Position numbers and translations under genes: made by a program
Notes under the pieces: model-generated
Databases searched by the model: none
Told to the model about the DNA's origin: nothing
What the model saw: only the letters and a program-made list of their open reading frames with translations
Source: Henriciella sp. AS95
Lineage (GTDB): Bacteria > Pseudomonadota > Alphaproteobacteria > Caulobacterales > Hyphomonadaceae
Length of the DNA stretch: 64,000 nt
Reading direction: 5' to 3'
Assembly (NCBI RefSeq): GCF_038900055.1
Contig: NZ_JBBMQM010000001.1
Location: 3,286,001 to 3,350,000, forward strand
Part shown: positions 26,592 through 32,387 of the stretch, in pieces
Layout of the letters: each line of letters opens with the position of its first letter
How positions within the stretch are numbered: position 1 is the first letter of the stretch

Positions 26592-26730
26592 ATCTGCATG
26601 ATTCTGTGCAGATCCGGCACACTTGCCCCATGCCGGGACAGGTTTGCGAACACGGATTTAACACGTCCGGGAAGAACGTTTTCAATTTTCATGAAAACTC
26701 ACAAATCTCGCTGAAATCTGATTTAACACG
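26590..26730. promoter_or_regulatory. sciP upstream region: GANTC sites and repeated CtrA-like half-sites
   Basis: Two GANTC (CcrM methylation) sites, GAATC at 26590-26594 and GATTC at 26600-26604, flank a 7-bp inverted repeat (ATCTGCA at 26592-26598, TGCAGAT at 26607-26613). The 11-mer GATTTAACACG occurs twice (26655-26665 and 26720-26730), each containing a TTAAC half-site like those used by CtrA. Together these suggest cell-cycle control of sciP. The sequences are seen; regulation is inferred from Caulobacter. Confidence 0.45.
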
Positions 26731-26787
26731 CGTGCTGTAGAACCATTTTTATAGGCGCAGAAGCGTCTTCGGTATCAACCGCTAAGA

Positions 26788-27072
26788 ATGGTGGAACTCA
26801 TGGCGCAGCAGAATGCGAGAACTTTGAGCGTAAAAGGGCCTGACGGCCTTCCAATGACCCGGGAAGATCTCCCGCCCCCCGGAATTAGCCGCTGGGTGAC
26901 TCGCCGCAAGGCCGAAGTCGTCGCGGCTGTCCGGGGGGGACTTCTTTCCCGAAAGGAAGCGTGCGATCGCTACGCCCTGACGGAAGAAGAACTGAACGGG
27001 TGGTACAAACTTTACGACAAGCACGGCACCAAAGGCCTGCGCACCACACGTCTACAACAATATCGCGCCTGA
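26788..27072 (+). CDS. sciP: CtrA inhibitor SciP (DUF1153)
   Basis: 94 aa. The core RWVTRRKAEVVAAVRGGLL followed by SRKEACDRYALTEEELNGWYKLYDKHGTKGLRTTRLQQYR is the SciP/DUF1153 helix-turn-helix. In Caulobacter SciP binds near CtrA sites and CtrA itself and blocks activation of CtrA targets in G1. Here it directly precedes the flagellar-type cluster, as in Caulobacter, and ctrA is 4.6 kb further on. The ATG at 26800 (GGTGG 5 nt upstream) is an equally plausible start. Confidence 0.94.
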   Translation: MVELMAQQNARTLSVKGPDGLPMTREDLPPPGISRWVTRRKAEVVAAVRGGLLSRKEACDRYALTEEELNGWYKLYDKHGTKGLRTTRLQQYRA

Positions 27073-27118
27073 TCCCCTTCGGCATCTGGCACTCCATCGC
27101 GGCTCCTCGACACCAACG

Positions 27119-27133
27119 TTAAAGCGCCGTTTA
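27119..27133. promoter_or_regulatory. CtrA-box-like site before the short fliF gene
   Basis: TTAA (27119-27122), seven bases, then TTTA (27130-27133) is one mismatch from the TTAA-N7-TTAA CtrA consensus. It lies 73 bp before the fliF start, as expected for a CtrA-activated class II flagellar operon promoter. Binding is inferred. Confidence 0.5.
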
Positions 27134-27205
27134 CGCTGATAGAGCATTTTGCGTTCAGACCCTGCCACTGATTTCAGGTGGCACCCTGTAGCGGAAAAAG
27201 GCTTC

Positions 27206-27886
27206 ATGTCAGCGACTAAGTCCAACATGCCCGGAGGCACGCGGCTCGCCTTGCTCGCAGCGCTGGCGATCACCGCGTGCCTCTTCGCATGGCGGTCCAA
27301 CAGCTTCCTGACCGATCATCGCCTTGATCGCAGCGAACTGACCCCGGCCCAGGCCGAACTCACCAATCTGCTCGAACCGGTTCTCGGCCGCGGCGACGTG
27401 CGCGTCGCCATCCATCAGGCCGCTGATGGCGGACAGAGCTTCCTGATCCTGGTCAATCGACCCAAGGAAGCCTTTGCCATCGATCCGCAGAAATATGATC
27501 AGGTCTCGATGATCCTGGACGCCGCCGCCGGCTATGATGCCAGCGTCGACAGACTGCAGATCCAGCCGATTGTATTTGCGTCGGGCCTGTCTGGCGGATT
27601 TTCAGCGGGTCAGCTCATCGAACTTGGCGGATTGCTCGTTATAGGCGGGTTGCTGGCCTTCCTTCTATTGACCAACAGGCAGGAGCAGCCGGTTGCCGCG
27701 CCCGCTTCACCGCGCGTCGACCTGCCCGCAAATGATACGCCTCGCCTACACGCAAAGCAGGTTCCAGACCTTCCGGCCAACAATGACAGCGCCGCCGAAG
27801 CCCGCCGGATTGCACGTGAGAATCCGCAGGAAACGGCAAAAATCATTAGAAGCTGGATCAATTCCAGCGAGGATGGAGGCTCATGA
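27206..27886 (+). CDS. fliF: Strongly shortened FliF-like MS-ring protein
   Basis: 226 aa against about 530-560 in ordinary FliF. It has one N-terminal membrane helix (about 13-29) and a single small periplasmic domain. That domain matches only the core of the third ring-building motif: LTNLLEPVLGRGDVRVAIH, then DQVSMILDAAAGYDASVDRLQIQPIVFA. A second helix (about 137-155) and a cytoplasmic tail follow, ending RRIARENPQETAKIIRSWI, the FliG-binding FliF C-terminus. The first two ring domains and the beta-collar are absent. There is no room upstream for the missing part: sciP ends 133 bp away. The frame opens at a TTG at 27149; the ATG at 27206 is better. It overlaps fliG by 4 bp. Confidence 0.8.
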   Translation: MSATKSNMPGGTRLALLAALAITACLFAWRSNSFLTDHRLDRSELTPAQAELTNLLEPVLGRGDVRVAIHQAADGGQSFLILVNRPKEAFAIDPQKYDQVSMILDAAAGYDASVDRLQIQPIVFASGLSGGFSAGQLIELGGLLVIGGLLAFLLLTNRQEQPVAAPASPRVDLPANDTPRLHAKQVPDLPANNDSAAEARRIARENPQETAKIIRSWINSSEDGGS

Positions 27887-28827
27887 GCCTGCCAGCACTA
27901 ATTTCTGACCACCGCTCTGCTTACGGACGCGGCGTCGCCCGCGCCGCCCGATTGATGAATGCGCTTGGGCCTGCCGCCGCAGGTGTCTGGGCAGAATTGT
28001 CGCCTGAGGAAGCCGACCAGCTCAGCGTCGCCATGAATACGCCTGCACCCTATCGAACCGACACCGGTGAGGCCGACGATGCGGCTGACTTTGTCCGCAG
28101 CTACATGGCCCATCCAGTCCAGGCGGAGTCGTCACCAGCCAATTCCGTCTGGTCCCGTCTCAGCCAGCTCGCCCCTGAGCATATCGCCCGCAGCTTTGAG
28201 CAGGAAAACCCGCAGGTCATCGCCGTAATCCTGTCCCGTCTCGCGCCTGACGCGGCCGCAAACACTGTGCGCGCCCTTCCACGCGAAACGGCGACCGCTG
28301 CCCTTCAACGCCTGCTCCACCTCGGCCGAATCCGCAAAGAAGCCATGCAGGTGATCGAGCTTGCGGTCGGCGACCTCATTGCCTCTGGCTCCGGCACTTC
28401 CAGCAATGACGGTCATGAAGCCGTCGCACGTATATTCGACGAACTGGATGGCCGCGGCGAAAGCGGTCTCCTGGCCTCTCTCGACCAGAACGAGCCTGGC
28501 AGCGGACAGCGTATCCGCGCCCTGATGTTTACCTTTAACGACCTGGCAGGTCTCACTCCGGCCGCCATCCAGACCATTCTGTCCTCTGTTGATCGCTCTG
28601 TTCTGGCGATTGCGCTGAAGGGCGCTCGGGCGCCCGTTCGAGATGCGTTTCTGCGCAATATGACCAAGCGTGCAGGCGATCTTCTCCTGACTGAAATAGA
28701 CGCCATGGGCCCGGTCCGCCGCGCCGAAATTGAAGACGCACGCCAGGATATCACACGGCTCGCCCGGACCCTCGCCAAGCGCGGAGACATTCTCTCTGCC
28801 AACGACCAGGATGAGCTTGTCGAATGA
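27883..28827 (+). CDS. fliG: Flagellar switch protein FliG
   Basis: 314 aa. A divergent N-domain (ARAARLMNALGPAAAGVWAELSPEEADQL) is followed by a middle domain (SFEQENPQVIAVILSRLAPDAAANTVRALP) and a clear C-domain (RIRALMFTFNDLAGLTPAAI, ALKGARAPVRDAFLRNMTKRAGDLLL, DAMGPVRRAEIEDARQDI). Of the E. coli torque residues, K264, R281 and R297 are conserved and D289 is Glu; D288 is Thr. So the motor interface looks largely intact. In the flagellum FliG links the MS ring to the C-ring and meets the stator. It overlaps both neighbours by 4 bp and is in the same operon as the short fliF. Confidence 0.93.
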   Translation: MSLPALISDHRSAYGRGVARAARLMNALGPAAAGVWAELSPEEADQLSVAMNTPAPYRTDTGEADDAADFVRSYMAHPVQAESSPANSVWSRLSQLAPEHIARSFEQENPQVIAVILSRLAPDAAANTVRALPRETATAALQRLLHLGRIRKEAMQVIELAVGDLIASGSGTSSNDGHEAVARIFDELDGRGESGLLASLDQNEPGSGQRIRALMFTFNDLAGLTPAAIQTILSSVDRSVLAIALKGARAPVRDAFLRNMTKRAGDLLLTEIDAMGPVRRAEIEDARQDITRLARTLAKRGDILSANDQDELVE

Positions 28828-29183
28828 GCCAATCAAAGCGCACCACCGTCACGCCCTTCGGCTTTCGCAGCGATTTCTCCGCGCCGGAAGACGCCCAGCA
28901 GGAGACCCGCATCTCCATCAGCGTCGCCGAGCTAGCCGCCCTCCTGGAAGACACACGTCAAAGCACGGCGGCCCTCATCCGCAATGAGCAGGTCGAACAG
29001 CAGGCCGAAGCGATCCGCAGCACGACTCAACAGCTAAAAGCAGCGCTGGCGCAGATTATAGACCTCGCCGAAACACTTGAAAGAATTGATCTTTCTGAAG
29101 CCGACCGCCAAGACATCAACACGCAGGTCAGCCGGATCGCATCAGAAATGATTGACGGCCAGGGCAATCTTTTCCAATCCTGA
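28824..29183 (+). CDS. Short FlbE/FliH-like protein
   Basis: 119 aa. The N-terminal piece has TTVTPFGFRSDF, then a helical, coiled-coil-prone body rich in Glu/Gln/Ala (about 32-115). It occupies the place of flbE (fliH) between fliG and fliN in Caulobacter, but is much shorter than a normal FliH/FlbE of about 200 residues and lacks a recognisable C-terminal FliI-binding part. The identity rests mainly on gene order and helical character. It overlaps fliG by 4 bp. Confidence 0.6.
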   Translation: MSQSKRTTVTPFGFRSDFSAPEDAQQETRISISVAELAALLEDTRQSTAALIRNEQVEQQAEAIRSTTQQLKAALAQIIDLAETLERIDLSEADRQDINTQVSRIASEMIDGQGNLFQS

Positions 29184-29273
29184 GGCATAGATTTTCCGGG
29201 CAGGACGATAATGTTCATTTCCCGGAAACCATTCAGCGCGAGGCTTGTGATTCGCTGCTACGGAGACCCGGAC

Positions 29274-29534
29274 ATGACGAATAACCGCGCACTCGAATCC
29301 AGCCTGATGGATGTGCCAGTCCGCGTGGATGTCGTCCTGGGCGAGGCCCGCATGCCGATCGAAACGCTGCTCAATCTCGGCCCGAGCGAAATCGTGGCGC
29401 TCGAAAAGAAAACCAATGAGCCTGTCGATATCTATGTCTCGGACCGGCTCATGGCACGTGGCCGCCTGGTCGTCTCAAACGGCGAGCTCGGTGTTAAGCT
29501 TTCCGAGATCGTGGACGAAAAGCACGCGGCCTGA
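29274..29534 (+). CDS. fliN: Flagellar switch protein FliN
   Basis: 86 aa from the ATG at 29274 (GGAG 8 nt upstream); the frame opens earlier at 29211. It is a single SpoA domain: MDVPVRVDVVLGEARMPIETLLNLGPSEIV, then EPVDIYVSDRLMARGRLVVSNGELGVKLSEIV. This is standard FliN, the C-ring component that, with FliM, binds CheY-P and the export ATPase. No fliM is next to it. It stands 90 bp after the FlbE-like gene. Confidence 0.94.
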   Translation: MTNNRALESSLMDVPVRVDVVLGEARMPIETLLNLGPSEIVALEKKTNEPVDIYVSDRLMARGRLVVSNGELGVKLSEIVDEKHAA

Positions 29535-29601
29535 TAGGCTTTTGAAATTGCCGGATGCTCGATAGCTGCAGGCTATCCACAGTTCTTTCGCATAGATTTC
29601 C

Positions 29602-29656
29602 GACTCCCTAACAAATCAACAGATTTCGTTAACCTTTCCGCGCCAAGGTGTGATTC
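29602..29656. promoter_or_regulatory. flhF upstream region with two GANTC sites and a TTAACC half-site
   Basis: GACTC (29602-29606) and GATTC (29652-29656) are CcrM-type sites, and between them GTTAACC (29629-29635) is a CtrA-type half-site without a clear second half. The 143-bp gap before flhF probably carries its own cell-cycle-regulated promoter. This is inference from pattern only. Confidence 0.35.
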
Positions 29657-29677
29657 CAGAAGTGGAGTTTATTGCCC

Positions 29678-30685
29678 ATGCGCATGAAAATGTTCGCAGC
29701 TGAGAGTTTCGAAGCCGCCAAGGCGGCGATCTTTGCCGAAATGGGCGAAGATGCGATTATCCTGTCTGAGCGTGAAGTACCTGGTGGCGTGGAAGTTCGC
29801 GCCGCGACCGACAAACTTGGCGGCGGCATGGTCCCGAGTGAGCCACGCTTCCTGACACGGATGCACGCCAATAACGGTCATGGCCGCGCGAACGAGAACC
29901 CGCTTCGCAACCGGGTCCGCGACGCCCTCCTCTGGCATGGCGCTCCACAAAGATTTGCAGACCGCGTTGCTGACGCCGGCGCACCGTTGAGTGCCAAGTC
30001 TAAAGACCCGTCCGAAATCATGGCATCGGGCCTCGACGCCCTTATTACCTGTGATCCGATACCGGCAATGCCGACGCGCGACATCCTGCTGGTCGGTCCG
30101 CCCGGACATGGCCGCACGGCAACCGCAGCGAAAATGACCCGCCGCGCCGCCGTCACGAATACCGAAATCCTTCCCGTGGCCGCCGACCTCGATGCGACAG
30201 CTGGCGGTGCCCAACTGGCCGCTTATCTCGAACTCGAGCAGCGCCAGATCCGTTCGGCCAGCACGCCGGACACTCTTTTCGAACTGCTTCGCGGCGCCCG
30301 CAAGGACGGCTATCGCTGCGTTATCGACCTGCCGGCGATTGTCCCCTTCGATGAAGAAGACATGGCCAGCCTTAAAGATCTGATCGCCGTTATCGACGCC
30401 GAACCGGTTCTCGTCATCTCGGCAGAAGGCCACCCCGACGACCAGGCAGAAGCTGCGCGTGCCTTCGCCGATGTTGGTGTGCGCCGCGCAATCGTTACCA
30501 AGCTGGATGTGACCCGCAGACGCGGCGGCATTGTTGCAGCGCTATCGAACGCTGGCATCGCCTTCTCACATCTTGCCGTGACCCCGTTTATTGGCGGCGG
30601 GCTCGTCCCGGCTGCCCCAGCACGGCTATCGAAAATACTGCTGGAAGAAGCTCCGGCAGACATCGCTTTGAGAGGAGCTGCTTGA
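29678..30685 (+). CDS. flhF: FlhF-like SRP-type GTPase with degenerate GTP-binding motifs
   Basis: 335 aa. The N-terminus MKMFAAESFEAAKAAIFAEM, then GEDAIILSEREVPGGVEV, is the FlhF B-domain. The G domain is recognisable but altered: the P-loop reads GPPGHGRTATAAKM with Arg146 in place of the Walker A lysine, the DTAGR motif reads IDLPAI, and the G2 region ADLDATAGG lacks the conserved Arg. G4 (TKLD, 274-277) is kept. FlhF normally sets polar flagellum position through GTP-dependent dimerisation. This copy may bind GTP weakly or act as a scaffold. flhG follows 1 bp later. The first frame codon is a TTG at 29672; the ATG at 29678 is used. Confidence 0.87.
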   Translation: MRMKMFAAESFEAAKAAIFAEMGEDAIILSEREVPGGVEVRAATDKLGGGMVPSEPRFLTRMHANNGHGRANENPLRNRVRDALLWHGAPQRFADRVADAGAPLSAKSKDPSEIMASGLDALITCDPIPAMPTRDILLVGPPGHGRTATAAKMTRRAAVTNTEILPVAADLDATAGGAQLAAYLELEQRQIRSASTPDTLFELLRGARKDGYRCVIDLPAIVPFDEEDMASLKDLIAVIDAEPVLVISAEGHPDDQAEAARAFADVGVRRAIVTKLDVTRRRGGIVAALSNAGIAFSHLAVTPFIGGGLVPAAPARLSKILLEEAPADIALRGAA

Positions 30686-30686
30686 T

Positions 30687-31538
30687 ATGAGCTTCATGCT
30701 TCCAAAATCCATGGACAGGCCATCGGATACGCCAGGCAAACGCACGCCTGCGCGTGTCCAGCCCGGTTCCATAATCGCCGTCGCGTCCGGAAAGGGTGGC
30801 GTCGGCAAGACATTCATGTCCATCACGCTTGCCAGCGCCATGGCGCAGGCCGGCCAACGGACCCTGCTCGTCGATGGTGACCTTGGTCTCGCAAACGTCG
30901 ACGTCCAGCTCGGTATCGCACCCGAGACGGACCTCGCAGCCGTCGTCGCAGGCTGGATCGAGCTTGAAGACGCTGTCATCAATGTCGATGGCGGCGCTGG
31001 CCAGGGCGGATTTGACGTTCTTCCGGGCCGCTCTGGTTCCGGCACACTGGCAGAGCTCGACACCGACGAGGTGTCACGCCTGACAGCAGGCATCTCGGCC
31101 CTCTCTCTCCAGTACGACAAGATCATTCTCGACCTCGGCGCTGGCATCGAAGCCAACTGCATGCGTCTCGCCCGTTCGGCCGATCGCGCCTTAATGGTTA
31201 TTACTGACGATCCGGCCTCGATGACGGACGGCTACGCCTTCATCAAGGTCCTTCGCGGTTATGCGCCGGATGTCGAGCAGAGTATCATTATCAACCAGGC
31301 GACAACACGCGCCATGGGCCAGCAGACTTACGAGGCTATTGCCCGCGCGTCGAAACAGTTTCTCGGTTTCCGCCCGGCACTTGCCGGGATTGTCATGCGT
31401 GATGAGAAGGTCAGGGATGCGATGCGTGCGCAACGGACTCTGATATCCACAGATCCTTCAGCGCAGCCGGTCCAGGACGCGATCGCGATCGCTCAGACTC
31501 TTATTGGTAACAGCGGCGGGCAGAACCTTCACTGTTAA
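30687..31538 (+). CDS. flhG: FlhG/FleN MinD-like ATPase
   Basis: 283 aa. An intact deviant Walker A (VASGKGGVGKTFMSITLA, about 31-48), LLVDGDLGLANVDVQLG (switch I region) and KIILDLGAGIE (Walker B/switch II) identify the FlhG branch of MinD ATPases. Residues 1-28 form a short N-terminal extension. FlhG counts polar flagella, stimulates FlhF GTPase and chaperones C-ring assembly by handing FliM/FliN to FliG. It is translationally adjacent to flhF. Confidence 0.93.
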   Translation: MSFMLPKSMDRPSDTPGKRTPARVQPGSIIAVASGKGGVGKTFMSITLASAMAQAGQRTLLVDGDLGLANVDVQLGIAPETDLAAVVAGWIELEDAVINVDGGAGQGGFDVLPGRSGSGTLAELDTDEVSRLTAGISALSLQYDKIILDLGAGIEANCMRLARSADRALMVITDDPASMTDGYAFIKVLRGYAPDVEQSIIINQATTRAMGQQTYEAIARASKQFLGFRPALAGIVMRDEKVRDAMRAQRTLISTDPSAQPVQDAIAIAQTLIGNSGGQNLHC

Positions 31539-31574
31539 GACGTATGAACAAAGTTGGGCAATTTTCTGCCCGCG

Positions 31575-31649
31575 TTAAATTCTTGGTAATTAACGGTACG
31601 TAGATTCACATTGGTTAACAACGCGGCTACGGTTGTCGCTGACTGATTC
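31575..31649. promoter_or_regulatory. ctrA promoter region: CtrA-like boxes and two GANTC sites
   Basis: TTAA (31575-31578), seven bases, then GTAA (31586-31589) is a one-mismatch CtrA box; further TTAA sequences occur at 31590-31593 and inside GGTTAACA near 31613-31620. GATTC at 31603-31607 and at 31645-31649 are CcrM sites. In Caulobacter ctrA is autoregulated and its P1 promoter is sensitive to GANTC methylation; the same design is plausible here. Confidence 0.55.
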
Positions 31650-31661
31650 GGGAGCAAGGAA

Positions 31662-32387
31662 ATGAGAGTTCTTCTAATCGAAGACGACAACTCCGTCGCC
31701 CGCAGCATAGAACTGATGCTGAAGGCTGCAGGATTCAATATTTACACCACCGACCTCGGTGAGGAGGGCGTCGACCTCGGCAAAGTGTACGAGTACGATA
31801 TTATTATCCTCGACCTGTCTCTCCCTGATATCTCCGGCTACGAAGTGCTCAAGCAGCTCCGTATGAGCCGCGTAAATACTCCTGTTCTGATTCTTTCAGG
31901 CAATCCAGACATTGAAGCGAAAGTTAAAACGCTCGGTTACGGTGCAGACGATTACCTAACCAAGCCGTTTAACAAAGACGAGCTGATTGCCCGCATCACG
32001 GCAATCGTTCGCCGCTCCAAAGGTCACGCTGAAAGCGTCATCCGCACTGGCGAAATCCTGGTCAATCTCGATGCCAAGACCGTCGAAGTCGATGGCGACC
32101 GCGTCCACCTGACCGGCAAGGAATACCAGATGTTCGAGCTTCTTTCCCTCCGGAAGGGCACGACGCTGACCAAGGAAATGTTCCTCAACCACCTTTATGG
32201 CGGCATGGACGAACCTGAACTGAAGATCATCGACGTCTTCATCTGTAAGCTCCGCAAGAAGCTCGCAAAAGCGACCTCCACCGCCGATAATCCGGGCGGC
32301 GAGCACTATATCGAAACCGTCTGGGGCCGCGGCTATGTCCTGCGTGACCCGAAAAAATCGAAAGACGAGGCGCTGGCAGCGGCCTGA
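31662..32387 (+). CDS. ctrA: Cell-cycle master response regulator CtrA
   Basis: 241 aa. The receiver domain has the acidic pocket (IEDDN), phospho-acceptor Asp51 in [10 protein letters not shown], and KPFNKDEL. The OmpR-type winged helix contains [52 protein letters not shown] and [13 protein letters not shown], essentially the invariant CtrA DNA-binding domain. The C-terminus ends in two alanines, as needed for ClpXP turnover. It controls flagellar, pilus, division and DNA-methylation genes. A strong terminator follows. Here it lies directly downstream of flhG, with sciP on the other side of the cluster. Confidence 0.97.

Follow-up and report, generated by a model that had tools for sequence, protein, structure and literature searches.

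A conserved flagellar-type module with a 226-residue FliF in Henriciella and Hyphomonas, a candidate rotary motor without a propeller

The locus and the question

What does a flagellar switch cluster do when its FliF counts only 226 residues? The question is raised by a 64,000-nucleotide stretch of the Henriciella sp. AS95 genome (contig NZ_JBBMQM010000001.1, positions 3,286,001 to 3,350,000; G000:C1:3286001-3350000, G000 being the source genome), which we call the window. The genome comprises 3.87 Mb at an estimated completeness of 100%, and its closest named relatives are Henriciella and Hyphomonas. Between positions 26788 and 32387 of the window, genes for SciP, the short FliF, FliG2, an FlbE/FliH-like protein, FliN2, FlhF2, FlhG2, and CtrA lie in a single direction (Table 1), which bears out the order sciP-fliF-fliG-flbE-fliN-flhF-flhG that an earlier note, made from the letters of the window alone, had read there. 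That note offered a choice between a second, full FliF elsewhere in the genome and a complex resembling the cytoplasmic ring (C-ring) of the flagellum without an export channel. We found that both hold: a second, full-length FliF exists, yet the module in the window is conserved, of C-ring type, and has no export gate to itself. On balance, and with some reserve, we favor the explanation that this module is a dedicated propeller-less rotor with its own stator, most likely with a sensory output.

Identity of the short FliF

Taken alone, the short FliF had no Pfam or NCBIfam match even at an E value of 1, and PF01514 was not matched. A profile built from 22 short-FliF relatives (family A1) matched Salmonella FliF (PDB 6scn; E 9.6e-6). 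The main stretch of this match (28.8 bits) covers FliF 401-559, which takes in the latter half of RBM3, membrane helix 2, and the tail that binds FliG; another piece, weak alone at 5.8 bits, covers FliF 240-268 at the start of RBM3, and the alignment has no counterpart of the beta-collar between both matched pieces. Homology to FliF is visible only via the profile of relatives and not with the curated PF01514 model. HHalign comparison of the A1 profile with full-length FliF from sister genera gave a probability of 94.7.

The AlphaFold2 model of the short FliF has a mean predicted local distance difference test score (pLDDT) of 76.8, with 81-97 in the ring domain block, and lays out a helix, an alpha-beta-beta-alpha-beta domain, a second helix, a loose linker, and tail helices. 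A tryptophan in the tail is invariant in 22/22 relatives. Profile, HHalign, and model together agree with the earlier description of two membrane helices, a single reduced ring-building domain, and a FliG-binding tail, and the claim that RBM1, RBM2, and the beta-collar are missing from the 226-amino-acid (aa) protein is borne out by profile and model. A minimal ring protein of ∼226 residues hints at which part of FliF may suffice to hold a C-ring.

Conservation and origin of the short form

Of 105 family genomes searched with a single sequence, 70, from 4 of 10 genera, carry the short FliF, and reading of the locus added G002 and G003. Three of the 70 places (G016, G017, and G024) show one stop inside the matched stretch; the frames of the latter two have 214 and 213 aa. 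Among 30 loci that were read, the short FliF is adjoined by sciP in all 30 and by FliG in 29, the remaining one being cut by a contig end. For named genomes, the best 80 of >500 FliG loci were fetched, and a FliF of 213-241 aa lies directly upstream of FliG in 36 of them, which are all 36 of the Henriciella/Hyphomonas type. Isolates with the module include Hyphomonas polymorpha (L127) and Henriciella aquimarina (L103). The other 44 comprise 20 with a longer FliF upstream (354-585 aa, the 354-aa one near a contig end) and 24 with none detectable by the queries used. A profile search over 398 genomes of the order gave weak matches in 38 that lie outside the family (E 2.5e-11 to 9.9e-4); their frames measure at least 501 aa, one 75-aa frame at a contig start (G261) excepted. 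Occurrence in 70 of the 105 family genomes and at 36 named loci rules out a sequencing or assembly truncation, and the comparison across relatives that the earlier note had proposed shows the short form conserved through the Henriciella/Hyphomonas clade beside sciP and FliG.

The alphaproteobacterial flagellar locus sciP-fliF-fliG-fliH-fliN-flhA-flhF-flhG has the same order in six genomes of five sister genera, with a FliF of 548-604 aa and a FliG of 358-372 aa. Because a FliF of that length stands at the same place in these genomes, the short form probably arose at this locus by trimming of a full-length FliF. The parts gone from the locus, namely RBM1, RBM2, and the beta-collar of FliF, most of the C-terminal half of FliH, and flhA, are export-serving pieces.

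Four contigs titled Candidatus Sulfopaludibacter or Acidobacteria (L128, L129, L134, and L135) carry a Hyphomonas-type module; these names look misassigned.

A second, complete flagellum in the same genome

An apparently complete, divergent flagellar cluster with its own FliF lies at about G000:C1:3703204-3737000. Family search identified FlhA, a 516-aa FliF, a 385-aa FliG, FliM/FliN, MotA, and MotB in this main cluster, and FlhB, FliR, and rod, hook, ring, and filament proteins were recognized by eye in the translations. The full-length FliF, fliM, flhA, and motAB that the earlier note had suggested looking for were all found by genome-wide search, flhA and the full FliF in the main cluster. 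The FliG of the main flagellum (FliG1; L003:16476-17633) has no equivalents of Escherichia coli K264, D289, and R297, which are T, A, and P in both sequences compared, and for this reason the divergent main flagellum may couple to its stator differently.

For genome comparisons we used a clade of 78 genomes from five genera (g1, g2, g4, g6, and g9) and 27 genomes from five sister genera. Clade genomes with no FlhA, no PF01514 FliF, and no FliG1-type match are called flagellum-less. FlhA is single in 65 of the 66 flagellated clade genomes (in two pieces in two of these); the 66th, G023, is fragmented and shows none.

Unlinked partners and their conserved residues

G000 has four FliM/FliN-type proteins. 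One of them, FliM2 (348 aa; C1:1722163-1723209), lies among unrelated genes, has a FliMN_C domain (2.2e-12), and carries the N-terminal motif LSKAEIEALL, which we take to resemble the CheY-binding motif of FliM. In fold comparison its model matches FliM of C-rings solved by cryo-electron microscopy (E 5.6e-12) as well as crystallized FliM middle domains; its profile had no match among PDB sequences at E 0.01. FliM2 is present in 77 of the 78 clade genomes (in G001 as a fragment only), G051 giving no match, and in none of the 27 sister-genus genomes, one marginal match apart (G079; E 7.9e-4; left uncounted).

The stator proteins follow the same pattern. MotB_plug has at least two matches in all 66 flagellated clade genomes, compared with one match in 23, two in one, and none in three of the 27 sister-genus genomes. 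MotA_N has two matches in 65 of the 66; among the 27 there is one match in 24 and none in three, never two. In G000, the additional copies are MotB2 (C1:2392788-2393465; 225 aa; plug and OmpA domains) and MotA2 (C1:292766-293656; 296 aa). The MotA2 sequences (12 compared) form one clade with support of 100/100, and the MotB2 sequences (13 compared) form one clade with 100/99 and long branches. A conserved protein of 174-221 aa lies downstream of MotA2 in 12 of 12 loci read (L254:8711-9277); it has no Pfam family above the cut-off, and the stretches read around five MotA genes of sister genera did not contain it.

Most residues that serve torque and proton flow are retained. In 19 FliG2 sequences, K246 and R263 are present in all 19, position 271 is E or D in all 19, and position 279 is R or K in all 19. 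MotA2 has equivalents of E98, P173, and P222 in 12/12 sequences and R or K at position 90 in 11/12, and MotB2 has the proton-path Asp in 13/13. An excerpt of PMC7564593 pairs MotA R90/E98 with FliG D289/R281 as contacts.

With the unlinked FliM2, MotA2, and MotB2 found, what might have been a possible scaffold becomes a probable motor, and we consider a stator-coupled rotor without a propeller to be likely. A static scaffold or landmark is the first alternative: the short FliF and a C-ring would serve FlhF/FlhG and proteins of the cell cycle or of pili as a positional mark in the cell, and no torque would arise. FlhF, FlhG, sciP, and ctrA do adjoin in the window, FlhF, FlhG, and CtrA are found in 20 of the 36 named loci, and G088, with no MotB match, still has C-ring parts. 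The P-loop of FlhF is altered as well, with Arg in place of Lys in 5/5 module-clade sequences, compared with Lys in 4/5 sister-genus FlhF proteins; because of this replacement FlhF2 possibly has no working GTPase. We nevertheless regard a scaffold as unlikely, since the module is accompanied by another MotA and MotB whose proton-path residues are intact, 8 of the 9 flagellum-less genomes that have FliG2 retain all four of its torque residues, and 16 of the 36 named loci have no FlhF/FlhG in the stretch covered, partly because contigs end.

Module parts in genomes without FlhA and full FliF

Thirteen clade genomes have no FlhA, and 12 of these also have no PF01514 FliF and no FliG1-type match (G001, G002, G003, G013, G021, G026, G029, G030, G031, G061, G073, and G088). 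G023 was rejected as flagellum-less: it gave no FlhA or FliF match, yet proteins of the FliG1, MotA1, and MotB1 types matched, and the assembly is 87% complete in ∼590 contigs. G068 and G104 have no FliF match but do have FlhA and were counted as flagellated. Among the 12, FliM2 is present in 12 (the G001 fragment included), MotA in 10, FliG2 in 9, a short FliF with ring domain in 8 (six from the search plus G002 and G003 from locus reading), MotB in 8, and all five in 7, where the MotA type of G002, G003, G030, and G088 and the MotB type of G029 and G031 rest on E-value class, not on a tree. The seven genomes with all five parts are G002, G003, G021, G026, G029, G061, and G073 (88, 86, 100, 95, 99, 99, and 93% complete, respectively). 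The whole operon from sciP to ctrA is kept in G021, G026, and G029, and the part from sciP to FliN in G061, G073, and G088.

Motor parts that are kept in relatives seemingly without a flagellum suggest that a rotary motor serves a purpose different from swimming. They also bear on the alternative that the module supplies spare or alternative rotor and stator parts to the main flagellum, exchanged under some conditions. Most carriers are flagellated and FliG1 has the residue losses described above, as such an exchange would have it; even so, all five parts persist in seven genomes that have neither FlhA nor a full FliF, and a flagellum equipped with a FliF of its own would have no use for a short one. 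We consider this alternative very improbable.

Selection, erosion, and points against a motor

Between G000 and G011, the ratio of nonsynonymous to synonymous substitution rates (dN/dS) is 0.21 for the short FliF, 0.14 for FliG2, 0.11 for FliM2, and 0.14 for MotB2, in this one pair and with synonymous change near saturation for FliM2 and MotB2. The module genes are under purifying selection, though looser than that on the main flagellar genes. A truncation or a decaying pseudogene, either of which would have overturned the earlier note, was not what we found: the short FliF has a dN/dS of 0.21, its frames are open, and its tail is conserved in relatives.

Several observations weigh against a dedicated motor. 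FliM2, MotA2, and MotB2 are unlinked to the module, and we infer their pairing with the rotor from co-distribution. Assembly, rotation, location, and output are likewise proposed from sequence. Foldseek comparison of the ring domain was weak, with KH domains on top and the chains of the Salmonella membrane-supramembrane (MS) ring at ranks 19, 29, 36, 40, and 43 (E 0.006-0.014); given this ranking, fold comparison alone could not identify the short FliF. The position of E. coli D288 varies in FliG2. In the tree, FliG2 forms one clade (support 100/100; branch length 2.04) beside Sphingomonas-type FliG (support 84/82); a placement as sister of sister-genus FliG was not obtained, and it is synteny that supports a common origin of the locus. 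The criterion for flagellum-less genomes does not include rod, hook, and filament genes, and at least three of the seven best such genomes (G026, G061, and G073) match metagenome-assembled genome records. Of the 12 flagellum-less genomes, 3 have no FliG match and 4 have no MotB match.

The module set can decay, because the FliF of G030 (L267:4005-4385) is down to 126 aa, two membrane helices and the tail with no ring domain, and stands beside a degenerate FliG2 without K and R279 equivalents; this genome gave no MotB match. G031 keeps FliM2, MotA, and MotB with no FliG match, and G013 and G001 keep, of the five parts, FliM2 alone. The joint loss of torque residues and MotB in G030 fits a link between them; this is one case, and G088 (80% complete) differs, with torque residues kept and no MotB match. 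Erosion in these four genomes is what a slowly decaying relic of the ancestral flagellum would show, and the module dN/dS of 0.11-0.21 exceeds the 0.03-0.12 of six main flagellar genes, indicating that the module is less constrained. Values of 0.11-0.21 nonetheless speak against such a relic, as do the same set in most of the 78 genomes and invariant functional residues in unlinked genes, and we rate it the least probable of the readings discussed here.

A possible mechanism

In the explanation that we favor, the short FliF would form an inner-membrane ring via its single ring-building domain, and this ring would hold a C-ring of FliG2, FliM2, and FliN2. A MotA2/MotB2 stator would anchor to peptidoglycan, conduct protons, and push on FliG2, with no rod to turn. 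The machine would descend from the family's ancestral flagellum at the original sciP-fliF place, having lost export-specific parts, and swimming would be left to the second, divergent flagellum. Its output would most likely be signaling, through sensing of torque or ion flux that acts on attachment or cell-cycle state. By analogy, a permanently propeller-less motor may be a fixed version of the mutant-rotor signaling device of Caulobacter. We put forward a sensory output of the motor as a tentative proposal only.

That analogy draws on late flagellar mutants of Caulobacter, in which, according to the portions of PMC7885107 and PMC11580411 consulted, a rotor intact without its outer parts raises holdfast production via MotAB and the stator-associated cyclase DgcB; this signaling needs MotB proton flux and involves cyclic di-GMP. 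The likeness to MotAB-DgcB surface sensing would lie in signaling from a rotor with stators and no hook or filament. The difference is that in Caulobacter this is a mutant state of a full flagellum, whereas the module would be an inherited propeller-less form. A further point to set against our explanation is that the same portion of PMC7885107 reads its own data as ectopic signaling and argues against a tetherless sensor in Caulobacter.

Torque could instead be spent on the envelope. A powered ring doing mechanical work, for example in budding, stalk formation, or on peptidoglycan, rather than signaling, would use the same parts, and Hyphomonas cells bud from a stalk, as stated in an excerpt of PMC7200025. 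No candidate coupled part was found, and beyond its ring domain the short FliF, as modeled, offers no structure that could pass force on to the periplasm. We judge this use to be quite unlikely, a little more so than a static scaffold.

Comparison with known systems

The module resembles the flagellar motor in its homologous FliF, FliG, FliM, FliN, MotA, MotB, FlhF, and FlhG and in having the same torque and proton-path residues. It differs from the flagellum in a FliF without RBM1, RBM2, and the beta-collar, in a FliH-like protein without most of the C-terminal half, and in being kept in genomes without FlhA and full FliF. Of the parts that define a flagellum, an FlhA and a full FliF of its own are absent, and the C-ring proteins FliG, FliM, and FliN and a MotA/MotB stator are present (FliM2 and the stators by co-distribution). 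The genome search for FlhA likewise found no FlhA/SctV-family export gate, which would mark a nonflagellar type III secretion system, in the module; the FlhA of G000 sits in the main cluster. Judged by its predicted parts, the module would work like a flagellar motor but is neither a flagellum nor a type III secretion system.

The injectisome (the nonflagellar type III secretion system) is a machine derived from flagellar parts in which export was kept and the motor dropped. The module has the reverse composition, with a motor and without export. The same reversal separates it from the remnants in nonflagellated Lysobacter, which, in the part of PMC9927559 consulted, lost fliG, fliM, motA, and motB and keep functional flagellar type III export; both are partial flagellar sets without a flagellum. 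The "hat" structure (PMC9380563; seen also in Hyphomonas neptunium) was considered as the same thing and rejected, given that the available part of that paper places it in E. coli and many other species and reports that it persists in a fliF deletion.

The earlier note knew of no described module of this kind, and we found no description of one among open-licence PMC papers, a scope outside which most subscription papers fall. By word search, neither fliF nor fliG occurs in the main texts of PMC7200025 (Hyphomonas CtrA) and PMC12700997 (a Caulobacterales survey). What would be categorically new is the machine as a whole; every recognized part is a flagellar homologue. If our explanation is true, this would be a third kind of machine beside the flagellum (export and motor) and the injectisome (export without motor), and marine bacteria would offer a rotor that lacks a propeller by nature and has stators of its own. 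In the fullest version of this idea, a rotary motor that stands alone, conserved in Henriciella, Hyphomonas, and their kin and lacking both export and propeller, would strain against its own stators, sense load or envelope state, and feed attachment and the CtrA cell cycle; we hold this to be a real possibility that falls short of probable, if somewhat better placed than a sensory output taken singly.

Features of the locus

The remaining genes of the locus (Table 1) retain flagellar features in varying degrees. As the earlier note supposed, FliG, FliN, and FlhG look functional, the first two matching their families and FlhG2 being MinD-like with an intact Walker A motif. The FlbE/FliH-like protein is about half-length, also as proposed, at 119 aa versus 242 aa (start uncertain) in one sister-genus genome; in comparison with that one sequence it keeps the N-terminal F-F motif and the C-terminal QGxLF and has lost most of what lies between. 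There is no flhA between fliN and flhF of the window, and no rod, hook, or filament genes were recognized beside module genes in the stretches read, no genome-wide search for them having been made.

Table 1. Features of the module and its neighbors, in positions of the window
Feature	Position	Strand	Basis
sciP (CtrA inhibitor; upstream marker of the ancestral fliF locus)	26788..27072	+	NF051866, E 2.2e-37
CtrA-box-like site before short fliF, one mismatch	27118..27134	.	Pattern match; others at 26712-26727 and 31574-31589
Short FliF, 226 aa	27206..27886	+	Profile match to FliF, HHalign to sister-genus FliF, model, family A1
Short FliF membrane helix 1, residues 10-36	27233..27313	+	AlphaFold2 model
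Short FliF single ring-building domain, residues 47-122, RBM3 type without beta-collar	27344..27571	+	Profile and model
Short FliF membrane helix 2, residues 134-156	27605..27673	+	AlphaFold2 model
Short FliF FliG-binding tail, residues 194-223, invariant Trp217	27785..27874	+	Family A1, profile, model
FliG2, 314 aa	27883..28827	+	FliG_C E 4.6e-35, FliG_M 4.4e-13, FliG_N 9.3e-8
FliG2 C-terminal torque domain with K246, R263, E271, R279	28477..28791	+	Sequence comparison
FlbE/FliH-like, 119 aa, most of C-terminal half missing	28824..29183	+	Position and alignment; no family match
FliN2, 86 aa; start chosen, alternative upstream start 29211 possible	29274..29534	+	FliMN_C E 1.6e-22
FlhF2, altered P-loop	29672..30685	+	TIGR03499, E 5.9e-18
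FlhG2, MinD-like ATPase	30687..31538	+	TIGR01969, E 7.7e-28
ctrA, downstream neighbor	31662..32387	+	NF045991, E 1.1e-121

A scan with a pattern that we take to be the CtrA box found five CtrA-box-like sites in the window versus 1.64 expected, and 5 of 100 shuffles reached as many. Four of the sites fall in 26712-31589, two of these four being one palindrome. The position of the module between sciP and ctrA and these sites agree with cell-cycle control.

In two sister-genus genomes, G079 (L269:14352-15476) and G081, FlhA occurs twice and an additional FliF-type protein is encoded by a 374-aa frame; these make up another system of flagellar or secretion type. In another genome, G077 (L261:10382-13513), one 1043-aa frame contains both FlhA and FlhF matches, as if the two were fused.

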